Shown: positions 11,523 through 18,619 of the stretch, piece after piece
Layout: every line of letters begins with the position of its first letter
Position numbering within the stretch: position 1 is the first letter of the stretch
NCBI GenBank assembly: GCA_024330215.1
Contig: JANDLU010000019.1
Span: 1-49,205, forward strand
Origin: Candidatus Gaiellasilicea maunaloa
GTDB taxonomy: Bacteria > Actinomycetota > Thermoleophilia > Gaiellales > Gaiellaceae
Direction: 5' to 3'
Length of the DNA: 49,205 bases
The notes under the pieces: generated by a model
What the model was told of the DNA's origin: nothing
What the model saw: only the letters and a program-made list of their open reading frames with translations
The model's database searches: none
Translations under genes and position numbers: made by a program

Positions 11523-12629
11523 ATGGCGAAGTCACGACTGCACGAGCTGAGCGAGGCGGGGGTCAGCGTCTGGATCGACTCGCTCTCGCGGGAGCTGCTG
11601 GAGACGGGCGAACTGGCGCGCCTCATCGAGGAGGATGCCGTCGTCGGTGTCACCTCCAATCCGACGATCTTTCAGAAGGCGCTCTCGGCGGGCGACCGGT
11701 ACGACGAGCAGCTGAAGGAGATCCTGAGCTCGGAGGACGATCCGACCGAGATCTTCCTCAGGCTCGCGATCGAGGATGTCAAGGACGCGTGCGACCTTCT
11801 GCGCCCGGTCTGGGATGGCGGCGGGGGGCAGGACGGCTACGTCTCGCTCGAGGTCGACCCGACGCTCGCCTACGACCGCGAGCGGACCTTCGGGCAGGCC
11901 ATGCGCTTGCATGAGGATGTCGACCGGCCGAACCTGCTCGTCAAGATTCCCGCGACCGAGCCCGGACTCGGCGCGATCGAGGACTCGATCGCGCGAGGCA
12001 AGTCGATCAACGTGACGCTGACCTTCTCGCTCGACCGCTACGAGGCGGTCGTCGAGGCGTACGTGCGCGGGCTCGAGCGGCTGGTCGAGGACGGCGGCGA
12101 CCCGGCGCCGGTCGCGTCGGTCGCGAGCTTCTTCGTCTCGCGCGTCGACACCGAGGCCGACAAGCGGCTCGATGCGGCTGGCAACTCGGCCCTCCAAGGC
12201 AGGCTCGCGATCGCGAACGCGAAGCTCGCCTACCAGCATTACCTCGAGGTGTTCGCCGGCCCGCGCTGGGCGCCGCTCGCGACGAAGGGGGCGACGAAGC
12301 AGCGCTGCCTCTGGGCCTCCACCTCGACGAAGAACCCGGCCTACCGCGACGTCCTCTACGTCGAGGAGCTGATCGGGCCGGAGACCGTCAACACGATGCC
12401 GGCCGAGACGATCGAGGCGTTCCAGGATCATGGCGAGGTCAAGCGCGACTCGCTGACGAGCGACGTCGCGGAGGCCGAGCAGCTGCTCGTCGACCTCCGC
12501 GAGGCCGGGATCGACTACGACGACGTCACCGAGACGCTCGAGCGCGAGGGCGTGCAGAAGTTCGCCGACTCGTTCGAGGAGCTGCTCGACGGGATCAGCG
12601 CCAAGCGCTCGGAGCTAGCCCCCGCGTGA
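11523..12629 (+). CDS. tal: Transaldolase
   Basis: A 368-residue aldolase-fold enzyme transferring dihydroxyacetone units from sedoheptulose 7-phosphate to glyceraldehyde 3-phosphate. Signature elements are VVGVTSNPTIFQKALS near the N-terminus and the Schiff-base lysine in NLLVKIPATEPG. SVASFFVSRVDTEADKRL and KQRCLWASTSTKNPAY are typical of the longer actinobacterial and cyanobacterial subfamily. The ATG at 11523 follows AAAGAGGAG with 8 bases spacing, a strong ribosome site. The 3' end overlaps pgi by 4 bases (GTGA). In several lineages these two genes are fused into a single protein. Confidence 0.95.
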   Translation: MAKSRLHELSEAGVSVWIDSLSRELLETGELARLIEEDAVVGVTSNPTIFQKALSAGDRYDEQLKEILSSEDDPTEIFLRLAIEDVKDACDLLRPVWDGGGGQDGYVSLEVDPTLAYDRERTFGQAMRLHEDVDRPNLLVKIPATEPGLGAIEDSIARGKSINVTLTFSLDRYEAVVEAYVRGLERLVEDGGDPAPVASVASFFVSRVDTEADKRLDAAGNSALQGRLAIANAKLAYQHYLEVFAGPRWAPLATKGATKQRCLWASTSTKNPAYRDVLYVEELIGPETVNTMPAETIEAFQDHGEVKRDSLTSDVAEAEQLLVDLREAGIDYDDVTETLEREGVQKFADSFEELLDGISAKRSELAPA

Positions 12630-13972
12630 AGTCGATCGTGGAGCGGATCTGGGCCTACGACGCCTCCGTCTGGACCGGTGGCGACGAGGATCGTTGGCTC
12701 GGGTGGCTCGATGTCGTCGACCGGATCCGACCTCACGTTGAGGAGCTGAACGCGTTCGCGGAGGGTGTGGGGAAGCAGTTCGATGACACAGTGCTGCTCG
12801 GGATGGGCGGCTCGAGCCTCGCGCCCGAGGTACTCCGCCGCACCTTCGTGGCCGAGTCGTTCCACGTCCTCGATACCACGCATCCACAGGCGATCCGCCG
12901 GCTCGAGAACGCCGTCGACCTCGACCGCACGCTCTTTCTCGTCTCCTCGAAGTCGGGCTCGACGCTCGAGACGCGCTCGCACCTGGAGTACTTCTGGGAT
13001 CGGACCGGCGGCCGCGGCGCCCAGTTCGCGGCGATCACCGATCCAGGCTCGGAGCTCGAGCGGGCAGCGACCGAGCGCGGCTTCCGAGCCGTCTTCGCGG
13101 GCGAGCCCGAGATCGGCGGCCGCTACTCGGCGCTCTCGATGTTCGGGCTTGTCCCGGCCGCGCTCATGGACGTCGACCTGGAGCGGTTCCTCAACGGCGC
13201 CGCCGGGATGGTGGACGCCTGTCGCGGCGACGACGCGAATCCCGGCCTCGAGCTCGGCCTGCGGCTCGGCAAGGGCTGGCGCGATGGGCGCGACAAGATC
13301 TGCATCGACGCCAGCCCGACCGGGTTCGGCGTCTGGGCCGAGCAGCTGCTCGCCGAGTCGACCGGGAAGCTGGGCAAGGGTCTGATTCCCGCGCCGGGGG
13401 AGTCGCCAGACGGGTCCGACCGCCAGCGCGGCGAGCTCCTGCTCGCCGACCCGTACGACCTCGGCGCCGAGCTCTACCGCTGGGAGTTCGCGACCGCGGT
13501 CGCCGGCCACGTGCTCGGGATCCATCCCTTCGACCAGCCGAACGTGCAGGCGGCGAAGGATCGGACGAACGAGGTGCTGGCCGCGGGAGAGCCGAACGTC
13601 GAGCCGCGCGGCTCGCTCGACGAGCTGTTCGCGAAGACGAAAGAGGGCGACTACGTCTGCATCCAGGCGTTCGTCGATCCCGCGCGCGAGGGCGAGCTCG
13701 CGCCGGTGCTGGAGCGCGCCCACGCGACCGGGTGCGTCGTCACATCCGGGCTCGGACCGCGCTACCTGCACTCGACGGGTCAGCTCCACAAGGGTGGGCC
13801 GAACACCGGCCTCTTCGTCCAGGTCGTCGACGAGACGGGCGCGGAGCTCGCGATCCCCGGCCAGGACTTTGGCTTCGCTCGGCTGATTCGCTCGCAGGCC
13901 GCAGGCGATCTCGCCGCGCTCGAGGAGAAGGGAAGGCGGATCGTCCGCATACGACTGGAGGACGTCAGATGA
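12626..13972 (+). CDS. pgi: Glucose-6-phosphate isomerase, compact form
   Basis: A 448-residue enzyme interconverting glucose 6-phosphate and fructose 6-phosphate. The sugar-phosphate-isomerase core shows LLGMGGSSLAPEVLRR, the phosphate loop SSKSGSTLETRSH and a C-terminal half with HPFDQPNVQAAKDRT. At 448 residues it is shorter than the ~540-residue classical enzyme and matches the isomerase half of transaldolase/isomerase fusion proteins. The GTG start overlaps the tal stop, consistent with a split or pre-fusion arrangement. Confidence 0.93.
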   Translation: MKSIVERIWAYDASVWTGGDEDRWLGWLDVVDRIRPHVEELNAFAEGVGKQFDDTVLLGMGGSSLAPEVLRRTFVAESFHVLDTTHPQAIRRLENAVDLDRTLFLVSSKSGSTLETRSHLEYFWDRTGGRGAQFAAITDPGSELERAATERGFRAVFAGEPEIGGRYSALSMFGLVPAALMDVDLERFLNGAAGMVDACRGDDANPGLELGLRLGKGWRDGRDKICIDASPTGFGVWAEQLLAESTGKLGKGLIPAPGESPDGSDRQRGELLLADPYDLGAELYRWEFATAVAGHVLGIHPFDQPNVQAAKDRTNEVLAAGEPNVEPRGSLDELFAKTKEGDYVCIQAFVDPAREGELAPVLERAHATGCVVTSGLGPRYLHSTGQLHKGGPNTGLFVQVVDETGAELAIPGQDFGFARLIRSQAAGDLAALEEKGRRIVRIRLEDVR

Positions 13973-14868
13973 AGATCGGAATGGTCGGTCTGGGCCGGAT
14001 GGGCTCCGGGATGACGAAGCGGCTCGAGCATGCTGGACACGAGGTCGCGACCTTCGATCCGAAGGTCGAGTCGACCGCGAAGACGCTGCGCGCGCTCGCG
14101 AAGCAGCTCGAGCCGCCGCGACACGTCTGGATGATGGTGCCCGCCGGGAAGATCACGGAGGACACGTTCCAGAAGCTGCTCGGGATCCTGGAGCCCCGCG
14201 ACGCGATCGTCGACGGCGGCAACTCCAACTTCCGCGACTCGCAGCGGCGCTACAAGGAGGCGCGCAAGCAGAAGATCTCGTTCGTCGACGTCGGCGTCTC
14301 GGGCGGGATCTGGGGGCTCGAGGTCGGCTTCTGCCTGATGGCCGGCGGCGACAAGGCTCCCGTCAAGCGACTGACGCCGATCTTCGAGTCGCTCGCCCCG
14401 GAGTACGGCTTCGCCCACGTCGGCGCCTGCGGGGCGGGGCACTTCACGAAGATGGTCCACAACGGGATCGAGTACGGCCTGATGCAGTCGTACGCCGAAG
14501 GCTTCGAGCTGATGCACCACTCGGAGTTCGAGCTCGACCTGAGCGAGATCGCAGGAATCTGGCGCTACGGCTCGGTCGTGCGCTCCTGGCTGCTGGAGCT
14601 CCTCTGCGCGGCGCTCGAGAAGCACGGCGACCAGCTGGACGACATCGCGCCCTACGTCGAGGACTCCGGCGAGGGCCGGTGGACGATCAACGAGGCGATC
14701 AACGAGAACGTTCCGCTCCCCGCGATCACCTCGGCTCTCTATGCGCGGTTCGCGTCGCGGCGGGAGATCGACTTCTCGGCCAAGGTGCAGGCCGCGCTCC
14801 GAAACCAGTTCGGCGGGCACGCGGTCAAGGCCGTGGAGGAAGCGAAGGCGAGACCCGACCCGAGGTGA
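13969..14868 (+). CDS. gnd: 6-phosphogluconate dehydrogenase, decarboxylating, short form
   Basis: A 299-residue oxidoreductase producing ribulose 5-phosphate and CO2 from 6-phosphogluconate. The N-terminal Rossmann motif is VGLGRMGSGM, with substrate site VGVSGGIWGLEVGFCLM and catalytic lysine region GHFTKMVHNGIEYG. The ~300-residue length matches the short Gnd class, often NAD-preferring, rather than the 470-residue NADP type; cofactor preference is inferred from length only. ATGA overlap with pgi upstream and GTGA overlap with zwf downstream. Confidence 0.94.
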   Translation: MKIGMVGLGRMGSGMTKRLEHAGHEVATFDPKVESTAKTLRALAKQLEPPRHVWMMVPAGKITEDTFQKLLGILEPRDAIVDGGNSNFRDSQRRYKEARKQKISFVDVGVSGGIWGLEVGFCLMAGGDKAPVKRLTPIFESLAPEYGFAHVGACGAGHFTKMVHNGIEYGLMQSYAEGFELMHHSEFELDLSEIAGIWRYGSVVRSWLLELLCAALEKHGDQLDDIAPYVEDSGEGRWTINEAINENVPLPAITSALYARFASRREIDFSAKVQAALRNQFGGHAVKAVEEAKARPDPR

Positions 14869-16373
14869 GCGCGACGGAGAACCCACTCCTCGAAGGTCTG
14901 CGGCTCCGCCGGACACCGGAGCCCTGCGCGCTCGTGATCTTCGGCGCCTCCGGCGACTTGACCCAGCGCAAGCTCTTTCCCGCGCTGTATTCCCTCGCCT
15001 TTCGGCGGCTCCTGCCTGAGCAGTTCGGGATCGTCGGCGTTGCCCGCACCGAGCAGACGACGAAGGAGTGGACGGCTGCGATGAAGGGGGCGGTGCAGAA
15101 ACACAGCCGCGATCCGTTCAAGCGGGACGTCTGGAGTGCCCTCGCGGATTCGATGACCTACGTCGCCACCGACTTCGCCGACGACCACGGCGAGGACGAG
15201 GTGCTCGAGGTGCTTCGCTCGCTCGACGCGGACCGGGGTACGGCCGGGAATCGCGTCTACTACCTCGCCGTTCCGCCGGCCGCGTTCGAGACGATCGTCA
15301 ACGAGCTCGGGGAGCGCCGCGGCGGCGGCGACGGCTGGACGCGGCTGATCGTCGAGAAGCCGTTCGGGCACGACCATGCTTCGGCGAACGAGCTGAACGA
15401 GATCCTGCAGCAGTGGTTCCGCGAGGACGAGGTCTTCCGGATCGACCACTACCTCGGCAAGGAGACCGTCCAGAACATGCTGGCGCTCCGCTTCGCCAAC
15501 GGGATCTTCGAGCCGATCTGGAACCGCCAGTTCATCGACCACGTCCAGATCACGGTCGCCGAGTCGATCGGGGTCGAGGGGCGCGCAGGCTTCTACGAGT
15601 CGGCGGGCGCCGTCCGCGACATCTTCCAGAACCACCTGCTGCAGCTGATCGCGCTGACGGCGATGGAGCCGCCGATCGACTTCACCGCCGACTCGGTCCG
15701 GAACGAGAAGGTGAAGGTGCTCAGGTCGCTGCACACTCCGGGCCCGAAGTCCGTCGTCCGCGGCCAGTACGGCCGTGGGTTCGTCGAGGGCGAGGAGGTG
15801 CCCGGCTACCGCGACGAGCCGGACGTCGCCGCCGAGTCGACGACCGAGACCTTCGTCGCGGCGAAGCTCTACGTCGACAACTGGCGCTGGGCCGACACGC
15901 CGTTCTACGTCCGGGCCGGCAAGCGGCTGGCGCGGCGCGAGACGACGATCGCGATCCAGTTCCAGCGCGCGCCGCACCCGCCGTTCGCGGAGATTGCCGG
16001 CGACGGTCTACGACCTAACGTGCTCCTGATCCACGTCCAGCCCGACGAGGGCGTCTCGCTCGCGATCGGGGCGAAGGTGCCGGGCCAGGGGATGTCGATC
16101 CGGACCGTGCACATGGACTTCCTCTACGGGGGCGCCTTCCGGACTGGGCTGCCCGAGGCGTACGAGCGGCTGATCCTGGACGCGATGCTCGGCGATGCGA
16201 CCCTCTTCACGCGTGCGGACGAGGTCGACGAGCAGTGGGAGCTCGTCGACTCGATCGTCGCCGCCTGGCGCCGCGACCGGCCTGTCTTCCCGAACTACGA
16301 GGCGGGAACGTGGGGCCCGCGCAGCGCGGACGAGCTGATCCACCGCGATGGGCGAAGCTGGAGGCGGCATTGA
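14865..16373 (+). CDS. zwf: Glucose-6-phosphate 1-dehydrogenase
   Basis: A 502-residue enzyme oxidising glucose 6-phosphate to 6-phosphogluconolactone, the entry step of the oxidative pentose-phosphate pathway. The nucleotide-binding fingerprint is VIFGASGDLTQRKLFPAL and the active-site signature is FRIDHYLGKETVQN; VEKPFGHD is also conserved. The GTG at 14865 overlaps the gnd stop. Its own stop overlaps the most upstream start of opcA. Confidence 0.96.
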   Translation: MSATENPLLEGLRLRRTPEPCALVIFGASGDLTQRKLFPALYSLAFRRLLPEQFGIVGVARTEQTTKEWTAAMKGAVQKHSRDPFKRDVWSALADSMTYVATDFADDHGEDEVLEVLRSLDADRGTAGNRVYYLAVPPAAFETIVNELGERRGGGDGWTRLIVEKPFGHDHASANELNEILQQWFREDEVFRIDHYLGKETVQNMLALRFANGIFEPIWNRQFIDHVQITVAESIGVEGRAGFYESAGAVRDIFQNHLLQLIALTAMEPPIDFTADSVRNEKVKVLRSLHTPGPKSVVRGQYGRGFVEGEEVPGYRDEPDVAAESTTETFVAAKLYVDNWRWADTPFYVRAGKRLARRETTIAIQFQRAPHPPFAEIAGDGLRPNVLLIHVQPDEGVSLAIGAKVPGQGMSIRTVHMDFLYGGAFRTGLPEAYERLILDAMLGDATLFTRADEVDEQWELVDSIVAAWRRDRPVFPNYEAGTWGPRSADELIHRDGRSWRRH

Positions 16374-17209
16374 GCGTGGTTGCCGACGTCGAGCGGAAGC
16401 TCGGGGAGCTGCGAGAGCGGGAGGCCGCCGACGGCACGCCCGATCTACGCACGAGCGTGATGACCCATGTCGCCTGGGCGCCGCCGAGGTGGGCGGATGC
16501 GGCGCGGAGCACGCTCGCCGGTCTCGAGGAGCGCCATCCGTCGCGGACGATCCTGCTCTTCCCCGAGCCGCGGCGGGGGGATTCGATCGACGTGACGGTC
16601 TCGATGCAGTGCTTCGCGATGCCGGGGGTCTCACAGGAGGTCTGCTCGGAGGTGATCGAGCTGCGACTCGGCGGCACGCGCGCGCAGGCTCCGGCCTCGA
16701 TCGTCCAGCCGCTGCTGATCTCCGACCTACCCACGTTCTGCCGCTGGCGCGGGGAGCCGCCCTGGGGGGAGTCCGAGCTCGAGCAGCTCGTGGACGTCTG
16801 CGACCGGCTCGTGGTCGACTCGTCCGAGTGGACCGGAGTTCCGGCTGCCTACGAGCAGCTGGCTCTGCTCTTCGATCGGGTGGCCGTCTCGGATATCGCC
16901 TGGGGTCGCGCACGCGAGTGGCGCGGCCGGCTCGCGGGCCTCTGGCCGGGGATCGAGAAGGCGGAGCGGCTGTCGGTGACGGGGCCGAAGGCGGACGCGC
17001 TCTTGCTTGCCGGTTGGCTGGGCTCCCGATTGCGGCGAGAGGTGGCGCTGACGCGGCGCTCGGCGAAGGAGCTGACGCGGGTCGCCGTGGACGGTGTGGC
17101 CGTCGACGCCCCGCTCGGCGGTCCTCCGACCGCGAGCGATCTGCTCTCCGCAGAGCTCGATCTCTTCGGCCGCGACCCGATCTACGAGGCCGCGGTCAAG
17201 GCTGCCTGA
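16370..17209 (+). CDS. opcA: OpcA-like glucose-6-phosphate dehydrogenase assembly protein
   Basis: A 279-residue protein resembling OpcA, the redox-responsive partner needed for full G6PDH activity in cyanobacteria and actinobacteria. Matching features are TSVMTHVAWAPPRWADAA early in the protein, the FPEPRRGDSIDVTVSMQCF core and the VVDSSEWTG segment. The position directly after zwf is the classic one. The start is taken as TTG at 16370, overlapping the zwf stop (TTGA); a GTG two codons later (16376) is equally possible. Confidence 0.85.
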   Translation: MSVVADVERKLGELREREAADGTPDLRTSVMTHVAWAPPRWADAARSTLAGLEERHPSRTILLFPEPRRGDSIDVTVSMQCFAMPGVSQEVCSEVIELRLGGTRAQAPASIVQPLLISDLPTFCRWRGEPPWGESELEQLVDVCDRLVVDSSEWTGVPAAYEQLALLFDRVAVSDIAWGRAREWRGRLAGLWPGIEKAERLSVTGPKADALLLAGWLGSRLRREVALTRRSAKELTRVAVDGVAVDAPLGGPPTASDLLSAELDLFGRDPIYEAAVKAA

Positions 17210-17237
17210 GGCCGGTCGAGCCGAGTTCGAGCGTGCG

Positions 17238-17950
17238 GTGGCGGCGTTTCCGCTGACCGAGCTGCCGCTCGATGATGCGCCACTCGAGGTCGCGCGCGGT
17301 TCGTTCGAGCGGACTGGCCTCTTCCTGCTCGGCGAGACGCACGGGATTGCCGAGACGGCGAGCGCGATCCTCTCGCTTGTCCGGAGGCTCGACGTTCGCG
17401 CGCTCGCGCTCGAGTGGTCGTACGACGAGGTGGACGAGATCGTCCAGGGAGTATTCGTCTCAGGCCGGATTGACCTCGACGCGCTCTGGGAGATCTCGAT
17501 CGGTGGCGATCTCTTCGCCTCGGACGGCCGCTTCACCGCCGGTCACGTCGCCGTGATCGAGCACCTTGTCCGGGCCGACCAGCTCGAGCAGCTGATCCTC
17601 GTCGATCGTCTCGGCGGGGGTTGGCCAACCCAGGACGACCGGGAGGAGGCACTGGCGTCCCGGCTGCTCGCCGGCCTGCGGCCGAGTCGTTCCGTCCTCG
17701 CCGTGCCGGGGTGCTATCACGCTGCTCGCGAGCTCAACGCCGCGCGGCGTCGATGGCGATGCGGGTCGAGCGTACGTTGCCGGCATCCGCGAACGGCGTG
17801 CTCGAGTTCTCCAGCGGTAGCTGCCACTTCAAGGAAGAGCAGTGTGACTTCAAGGGCGAGCAGCCCGTGCGTCCGGTGAACCGCTCGTTCGATGCGGTCT
17901 TTCGCCTCGGCCGCGCAACCCCGGCCACCGTCCCTTCTCGACAGGTCTGA
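17238..17950 (+). pseudogene. Frameshifted protein with LGETHG motif
   Basis: The first part reads in one frame from GTG 17238 (VAAFPLTELPLDD, LFLLGETHGIAETASAIL, ALALEWSYDEVDEIV, VLAVPGCYHAARELN). Beyond about 17745 that frame becomes Arg/Ser/Cys-rich nonsense up to 17879. The frame one base back instead continues with good codon use: MAMRVERTLPASANG, LEFSSGSCHFKEEQ, RPVNRSFDAVFRLGRATPA, stopping at 17950. One base therefore seems lost between about 17735 and 17755. The LGETHG and GCYHA motifs suggest a Tiki/ChaN or erythromycin-esterase-like hydrolase fold, a weak guess. It sits where pgl usually follows opcA, but does not look like a lactonase. Its stop lies in repeat family C. Confidence 0.7.
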
Positions 17951-17978: not shown

Positions 17979-18013
17979 AACGTCTCGCGGAGACCGGTGC
18001 TCTCGCATCTAAG

Positions 18014-18032
18014 TGTCGTTTACAGGTATAGT
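18014..18032 (+). promoter_or_regulatory. padR promoter with TGT-N5-ACA operator candidate
   Basis: TATAGT at 18027-18032 lies 7 bases before the ATG at 18040, so transcription would start at or next to the start codon (leaderless). Just upstream is TGTCGTTTACA (18014-18024), a short TGT-ACA dyad, the kind of site PadR proteins bind; overlap with the promoter suggests autorepression. No binding data; motif by eye. Confidence 0.5.
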
Positions 18033-18039
18033 GCTCGAG

Positions 18040-18438
18040 ATGAAGCGATCTCGCAGCGCCCGTCATCGAAGGCTCGTGGACGGCCAGTGGGCCGTGGATG
18101 CTCGCGTCGCCCGGCTCGCCGAACCTGCAGTCCTCGTGATCCTGGCCGAGCGGCCGACTCACGGCTACGAGCTGCTCGAGCGGCTGCCGACGCTACTCGG
18201 TGCCGAGAGCGTCGACGCCGGGAACCTCTACCGCTTCCTGCGGGCGCTCGAGGCCGACGGCATCGTCACCTCCACCTGGGACGCGGAGCTGCCCGGGCCG
18301 GCGAGACGCACCTACACGATCAGCGGTGCGGGCCGGCAGTTGCTCTCCGCCTGGGTTGGAGCGCTCGAAGCCACTCGCACGCGGATCGACCAGTTCCTCG
18401 ATCAATCCGGAGGAGGTGAACATGTGCAAAGGACATAG
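18040..18438 (+). CDS. PadR-family transcriptional regulator
   Basis: A 132-residue winged-helix regulator. Residues ~25-100 show the PadR core: VLVILAERPTHGYELLERL, NLYRFLRALEADGIV (recognition helix and wing) and RTYTISGAGRQLLSAW. A short C-terminal helix, probably for dimerisation, follows (LEATRTRIDQFLDQ). The start at ATG 18040 is preferred over GTG 18013 because a TATAGT -10 box sits at leaderless distance from it. Its 3' end overlaps the small His-rich protein gene by 17 bases, so the two are co-transcribed. The ligand is unknown. Confidence 0.9.
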   Translation: MKRSRSARHRRLVDGQWAVDARVARLAEPAVLVILAERPTHGYELLERLPTLLGAESVDAGNLYRFLRALEADGIVTSTWDAELPGPARRTYTISGAGRQLLSAWVGALEATRTRIDQFLDQSGGGEHVQRT

Positions 18439-18619
18439 CCACGGACACGGAAGACGCGGCCACCGCTCACTGCGGGCCCGCTATCCCAACCGCGACGAGC
18501 TGCTCGGCAAGCTCGAGGAGCATCAGAAGGATCTCGAGCAGGAGGTCGCCGACGTCGCCGATCTCATCCGACGGCTCCGCGATGAAAGTCGCGAGGCCGC
18601 CGAGACCGCCGGCGTCTAA
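18422..18619 (+). CDS. 65-residue His/Cys-rich small protein with coiled coil
   Basis: Short gene starting at ATG 18422 behind a very strong ribosome site, GGAGGAGGTG, which lies inside the padR coding end. The N-terminus MCKGHSHGHGRRGH has one Cys and four His in 14 residues, suggesting metal binding. The remainder (YPNRDELLGKLEEHQKDLEQE, VADLIRRLRDE) is a predicted amphipathic helix or coiled coil. Small coiled-coil proteins often follow padR genes and may be the regulated product. No known function is recognised; it could be a metal chaperone, buffer or co-sensor for PadR. Confidence 0.75.
   Translation: MCKGHSHGHGRRGHRSLRARYPNRDELLGKLEEHQKDLEQEVADVADLIRRLRDESREAAETAGV

Follow-up and report, generated by a model that had tools for sequence, protein, structure and literature searches.

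The locus raises the question of what is made, and under whose control, when a PadR-family regulator gene overlaps a very small gene, a layout that the sequence-only reading had proposed to be a metal- or stress-responsive unit with the microprotein as its abundant output. Within the window, meaning the whole 49,205-nucleotide stretch that was analysed, padR (18040..18438, positive strand) encodes a protein of 132 aa from an ATG at 18040, and its 3′ end overlaps the microprotein ORF (18422..18619, positive strand; 65 aa) by 17 nt. The candidate PadR operator (18009..18028, positive strand) reads CTAAGTGTCGTTTACAGGTA in the window, against a consensus of ACATRTGTNTTTKACMTRTA in relatives, and includes a TGT-N5-ACA site at 18014-18024 on the same strand; its right end overlaps a −10-like hexamer, TATAGT, read by eye at 18027..18032 (positive strand). 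The padR ATG lies 7 nt downstream of this hexamer, a distance that makes a leaderless start likely, and the start assigned by our own gene-calling script is the later position 18076. The Shine-Dalgarno sequence of the microprotein gene, AGGAGGTGA, is located within the padR 3′ end (18411..18419, positive strand). The features described earlier from the letters alone, namely the TGT-N5-ACA site, the overlapping gene of 65 codons and a probably leaderless padR, are all present at this locus. Judging by its gene content, the window may come from a member of Thermoleophilia.

The pairing of the two genes is conserved. A microprotein homologue at E 0.01 or better was identified in 29 of 101 genomes (its own and 100 relatives), and a PadR gene is directly upstream in 28 of these, the exception being G040. 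In the class as a whole, a microprotein profile matches 50 of 299 genomes at E 0.001. That the small ORF is kept next to padR, as the sequence-only reading supposed, is borne out in 46 of the 50, where this PadR is encoded directly upstream on the same strand; three of the other four (G040, G281 and G306) have a MarR-family gene, and the last is G202 (E 2e-4). Searched from the other side, a PadR profile matches 79 of the 299 class genomes at E 1e-22 with a clear gap in score, 46 genomes scoring E 7e-43 or better and the next 7e-32. All 46 genomes of this top group have the microprotein adjoining on the same strand (coordinates compared by hand), a result that is partly circular in that the profile was built from 17 PadR genes that all lie beside a microprotein; the score gap is free of this circularity, as is the figure of 46 of 50 obtained by starting from the microprotein. 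A single microprotein match per genome was obtained in 49 of the 50, with a partial second match in G267, and presence is patchy within genus g19, where G060 has the microprotein and none was found in G019, G039, G051 or G149; these absences and copy numbers are soft, because many genomes are incomplete and the profile searches scored part of the first-look candidates of each genome (in the window genome, G000, 21 of 125 for the microprotein and 14 of 81 for PadR).

Beyond the class, a phylum-wide draw yielded matches to the microprotein profile in 11 of 396 genomes: three of the same class (G000, G032 and G107), two of other classes that both carry the PadR pair (G331 and G363), and six weak matches, one of them GrpE-like, whose fetched loci show no sign of this PadR. 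Among 148 genomes of the G363 class, five match, four of them with PadR (G363, G727, G761 and G774, the microprotein of the last having been scored in the class search and not re-detected on a later look) and the fifth being G680; in the class of G331, one of 27 matches. The microprotein and its dedicated switch were found in three or more classes of a single bacterial phylum. A scan of contigs with a single query sequence confirmed only L031 among the matches listed. Four genome matches were dropped: L030, which is another ORF and has no PadR, L068, GrpE-like by eye, L174/G680, PurE-like by eye, and the E 2e-4 match of G202. The distant, low-GC loci L065, L066, L067, L069 and L070 encode small proteins with a similar short helix and, in most cases, a tail rich in His or aromatic residues; a PadR sequence search of these five fetched loci found no PadR of this type.

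The upstream region of padR is conserved along with the pair. The dyad ACATRTGTNTTTKACMTRTA is common to the padR promoters of relatives and overlaps the −10, in an operator/−10 layout that appears similar from locus to locus by eye, with the start codon 4-11 nt past the consensus dyad in at least 21 of 34 loci. A site with five or fewer mismatches lies within 200 nt of 32 of the 34 padR genes (31 relatives plus the window) compared with three of 458 other genes, and those three are divergent neighbours sharing padR's own intergenic region. The window copy, with five mismatches to consensus, is the weakest of the 32, and the padR genes of L073 and L104 have no good site (six mismatches). When 26 hand-chosen genomes, all with the pair, were scanned genome-wide at two or fewer mismatches, 19 had exactly one match, always at padR as judged by coordinates, and seven had none (G000, which is the window genome, G022, G030, G021, G060, G035 and G107), such that the single-site result holds for 19 genomes at this threshold; a reversed-pattern control gave no matches in the same scan. 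PadR operators are described in two papers as ATGT/ACAT inverted repeats with a spacer of 8-10 nt (PMC5050560, PMC3506622). The candidate operator of the relatives is ATGT-N7-ACAT, for example ACATGTGTGTTTTACATGTA, with a spacer of 7 as against the published 8-10, and the window copy retains TGT-N5-ACA only. The promoter site first noticed at padR in the window appears in relatives as a conserved dyad, the probable PadR operator.

The translation signals of the small gene are also distinctive. Its Shine-Dalgarno sequence has a predicted duplex energy of −15.1 kcal/mol with a generic anti-Shine-Dalgarno 12-mer, and ranks first among the 44 window genes called by our own script with enough upstream sequence; this site had been counted among the strongest of the window, and is the strongest of these 44. 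An 8-base Shine-Dalgarno match is found in 27 of the 29 homologues and a 5-base match in the other two, which together with the rank supports the proposal that the microprotein would be the strongly translated product of the unit.

The microprotein begins with MCKGHSHGHGRRGH. Codons 1-22 (18422..18487, positive strand) encode an Arg/Gly/His-rich cationic tail that is probably disordered, judging from its composition and from AlphaFold2, and codons 24-64 (18491..18613, positive strand) a putative single helix with a zipper-like core, as suggested by the alignment and by AlphaFold2. The model, computed from two-sequence input, consists of one long helix over residues 24-64, with pLDDT of 93-99 in 10-residue blocks across residues 21 to 60, 81 in the final five residues and a low-confidence 53-68 in the tail; this prediction, with its zipper-like heptads, agrees with the coiled coil placed after the tail in the earlier reading. 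In a comparison set of 37 microproteins (the 29 homologues and eight added by hand), lengths range over 55-79 aa and the net charge is +2 to +8 in the tail and −3 to −8 in the remainder. In the heptad register that we assigned, the window zipper has L31, L38, V45 and L52 at d and Q35, V42 and I49 at a. Leucine occupies d positions 31, 38 and 52 in 36 or 37 of the 37 proteins, with isoleucine otherwise, Val or Ile occupies position 45 in 36, and Gln35 is kept in 36. The non-core residues E32, D37, E39 and D44 are kept in 35 to 36 of the 37, which in our judgement exceeds what a generic coil would need. The two-sequence helix model weakly suggests a dimer. In 23 of the 37 the last two residues are Thr or Ser and then Val or Ile (TV in 12, SV in eight, SI in three), possibly a protease or docking signal.

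The tail had been called His/Cys-rich. The histidine part of this description stands, with H-x-H or HH in 33 of the 37 tails and a median of four His per tail; the cysteine part does not, as 16 tails have no Cys, 21 have one and none has two. The term His-rich is itself incomplete, Arg and Gly being no less prominent in the tail than His (Arg 28%, Gly 21%, His 20%). The His cluster, kept in those 33 tails, is partly lost in other classes, where Met/Cys or aromatic residues largely take its place: the G331 tail is aromatic-rich with one His, and the G727 and G761 tails are Met/Arg/Gly-rich with a CC pair, the zipper having changed much less than the tail across classes. These observations bear on a metal unit, in which the tail would chelate Ni, Cu, Zn or Cd and PadR would sense that metal. 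The number of His and the HH or H-x-H pairs speak for such a unit, the Met and CC found instead of His clusters in G727 and G761 could represent a soft-metal ligand exchange, and L070, a distant homologue without PadR, adjoins a cation-efflux-like gene (by eye). However, the commonest tail residue is Arg, paired cysteines occur in none of the 37 tails, G331 has its one His, and among the neighbours named by eye in 40 fetched stretches in which genes were called, no recurring metal gene was noticed, P-type ATPase genes being near two loci only (G331 and G363, by eye). A metal-responsive unit is possible but unproven, and chelation and sensing of one and the same metal is a reading we regard as somewhat unlikely.

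Family searches give the microprotein no name. The window protein has no Pfam family above cutoff (TMF_TATA_bd, E 0.0095, falls below it) and no match in NCBIfam, PHROG or PADLOC. Searched singly against Pfam, the 29 homologues match 16 families at E 0.1 or better, with a best E of 0.0005; the widest of these matches, MerR-DNA-bind, is found in five of the 29 (best E 0.0021), and we read this scatter as chance matches of coil-like sequence. A search of solved structures with the microprotein profile returned 34 sequences at E 1 or better, led by an engineered TPR protein (E 1.1e-8, with no single stretch passing alone); these engineered TPR repeats and unrelated proteins were rejected as relatives and taken as coil-like or tag-like matches. 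The microprotein is a family without a name, fitted by no family model, and among the matches listed in a search of open-licence PMC literature there was no description of a padR-microprotein unit.

Among known families, DUF5320 (PF17253) resembles the microprotein in having a short tail ahead of a comparable C-terminal helix. Its second half is matched by the pair member of G331 (E 0.019) and by unpaired distant homologues (best E 8.6e-6, just above cutoff), the L070 protein falling just above the family cutoff and the L066 protein just below. The microprotein lacks a counterpart of the first half of this family. Membership was rejected, as the window microprotein has no match at E 1 and none of the 29 homologues has one at E 0.1. 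Of 30 DUF5320 loci, from all 24 genomes with DUF5320 matches, only that of G331 adjoins this PadR.

The regulator is more readily placed. The window protein matches PF03551 (E 1.7e-17; 63.6 bits versus a gathering score of 27) and is predicted to belong to the short, s2-like type, whose C-terminal part is one helix, here at residues 96-124 of 132; in the two-sequence AlphaFold2 model, three helices and two strands resemble a winged helix, and residues 1-23 are of low confidence. The closest solved chain by sequence is TM0937 (2esh). The window PadR has a basic, R/H-rich N-terminal tail, and many relatives' PadR proteins bear R/H/G-rich N-terminal tails that resemble the tail of the microprotein. 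The window genome also encodes a second, more distant PadR (C125:25237-25614, E 7.7e-30) that has no microprotein, the genome's sole microprotein match being elsewhere.

The best NCBIfam match of PadR is PhaQ (TIGR02719, E 4.1e-20), which brings in phaQ-phaP of Bacillus megaterium, in which the repressor is reported to be autoregulated and to share its transcript with a small protein that outnumbers it (PMC9049629). The likeness lies in this repressor-plus-small-protein layout, and could suggest that the microprotein is a phasin analogue of storage granules and PadR a PHB sensor. However, the PhaQ match reaches 72.5 bits against a cutoff of 139.35, the partner here is a protein of 55-79 aa with an R/G/H tail, and PhaC_N was found in three of 36 genomes with the pair and four of 37 without, the window genome not among them. 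These counts, from a search that covered synthases with PhaC_N, and the model cutoff largely refute the PHB/phasin reading, which we hold to be barely credible. A second parallel is lftR-lftS of Listeria monocytogenes, a bicistronic PadR and partner of unknown function whose effect was judged repressor-independent (PMC4517056). There too a PadR gene is followed by a single partner gene, however LftS is a DUF1048 protein, a domain not found in the window microprotein by Pfam, and LftR also controls a second operon, lieAB. Listeria PadR-type repressors have one or two target units each, which are about 150-fold derepressed in mutants, according to a further study (PMC6624303). The lltR operon of Listeria (PadR, DUF1700, DUF4097) differs in that its products are membrane and exoproteins and not a microprotein. 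By analogy of layout, the unit would work like phaQP or lftRS, and it belongs to neither.

Across the 40 fetched stretches, padR and the microprotein gene stay together in surroundings that differ: the flanking genes, named by eye, form six or more unrelated groups (fusA/sigma factor, nusA/infB, transaldolase, nfo/gltX and others). This persistence of the unit through changing surroundings, its patchy presence inside genus g19 and the combination of a small partner with a repressor would suit a selfish or defence-like mobile module of the toxin-antitoxin type. Such a module is nonetheless highly improbable, with no matches in plasmids, phages, viral contigs, PHROGs or PADLOC, and with just one microprotein match in each of 49 genomes out of 50.

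The regulator is itself replaced in one genus. In the three genomes of g20 (G040, G281 and G306), a divergent MarR-family gene precedes the microprotein and no PadR was found in the stretch; the G306 regulator matches MarR_2 (E 7e-14), the MarR identities of G281 and G040 being assigned by eye. The region shared by the MarR and microprotein genes contains RGTTA-N8-TAACT in all three genomes, as seen by eye and without a chance control; the G306 copy is AGTTATCATCGTATAACT, from which that of G281 differs by three changes and that of G040 by more. The g20 microprotein has diverged. This replacement marks the regulator of the cassette as apparently exchangeable, PadR for MarR, and the microprotein as its constant part.

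Conservation of the pair, the dyad, its single strong copy in 19 genomes, the strong Shine-Dalgarno sequence and the change from PadR to MarR in one genus are the sequence-level grounds for the favoured reading, which is fairly probable: a dedicated, autorepressed two-gene switch whose output and effector is the microprotein. PadR would bind the dyad over its own −10 and repress the padR-microprotein transcript, as suggested by the position and conservation of the site and by PadR biology, until some inducer releases it. Little PadR would then be made from the leaderless start, and much microprotein from the near-perfect ribosome site. The microprotein would act as effector and not as a subunit of the repressor, probably as a parallel dimer held by the acidic zipper, with one buried Gln and two disordered Arg/Gly/His-rich tails. 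Under the stress sensed by the regulator, the probable ligand of these tails would be either a transition metal or a polyanion, whether nucleic acid, ribosome or membrane surface.

The effector role is preferred to that of a repressor subunit because of the MarR replacement and the translation signals, and rests mainly on the three genomes of g20. In the competing co-regulator reading, the zipper of the microprotein would dock on the C-terminal helix through which PadR dimerises, making the small protein an anti- or co-repressor and perhaps the sensor itself. This rival is kept alive by how strictly the two genes pair and by the conserved residues on the zipper outside its core, and the gene overlap in the window and the R/H/G-rich N-terminal tails on both proteins would suit it as well. 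However, MarR takes the place of PadR in g20, the translation signals point to more microprotein than PadR, and the PadR alignment is variable in the C-terminal helix, its invariant columns outside the N-terminal region being mostly what we take to be the usual winged-helix ones. A co-regulator is considered unlikely.

On the favoured reading of a switch with an effector output, a broader proposal can be offered tentatively: the microprotein may represent a new kind of inducible effector, a dimeric zipper of 55-79 residues that under stress binds large amounts of nucleic acid, ribosomes or a soft metal through its two disordered tails, carried in a self-contained cassette with an exchangeable regulator (PadR or MarR). 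If so, its tails would be Arg/Gly/His here and Met/Cys or aromatic elsewhere. The clear operator and the natural replacement of the regulator make the function of the small protein directly testable, and a signal shared by the inducers of PadR here and of MarR in g20 would point to the job of the microprotein.

Upstream of the pair, the ORF that runs to 17879 seems to continue in another frame (17753-17950), and the region 17205-17950, neither part of which is matched in Pfam, resembles a gene that is frameshifted or in decay, situated between opcA and padR. It is preceded at 11523-17209 by tal-, pgi-, gnd-, zwf- and opcA-like genes forming a central-carbon cluster, of which opcA was checked (PF10128) and the other four were named by eye.
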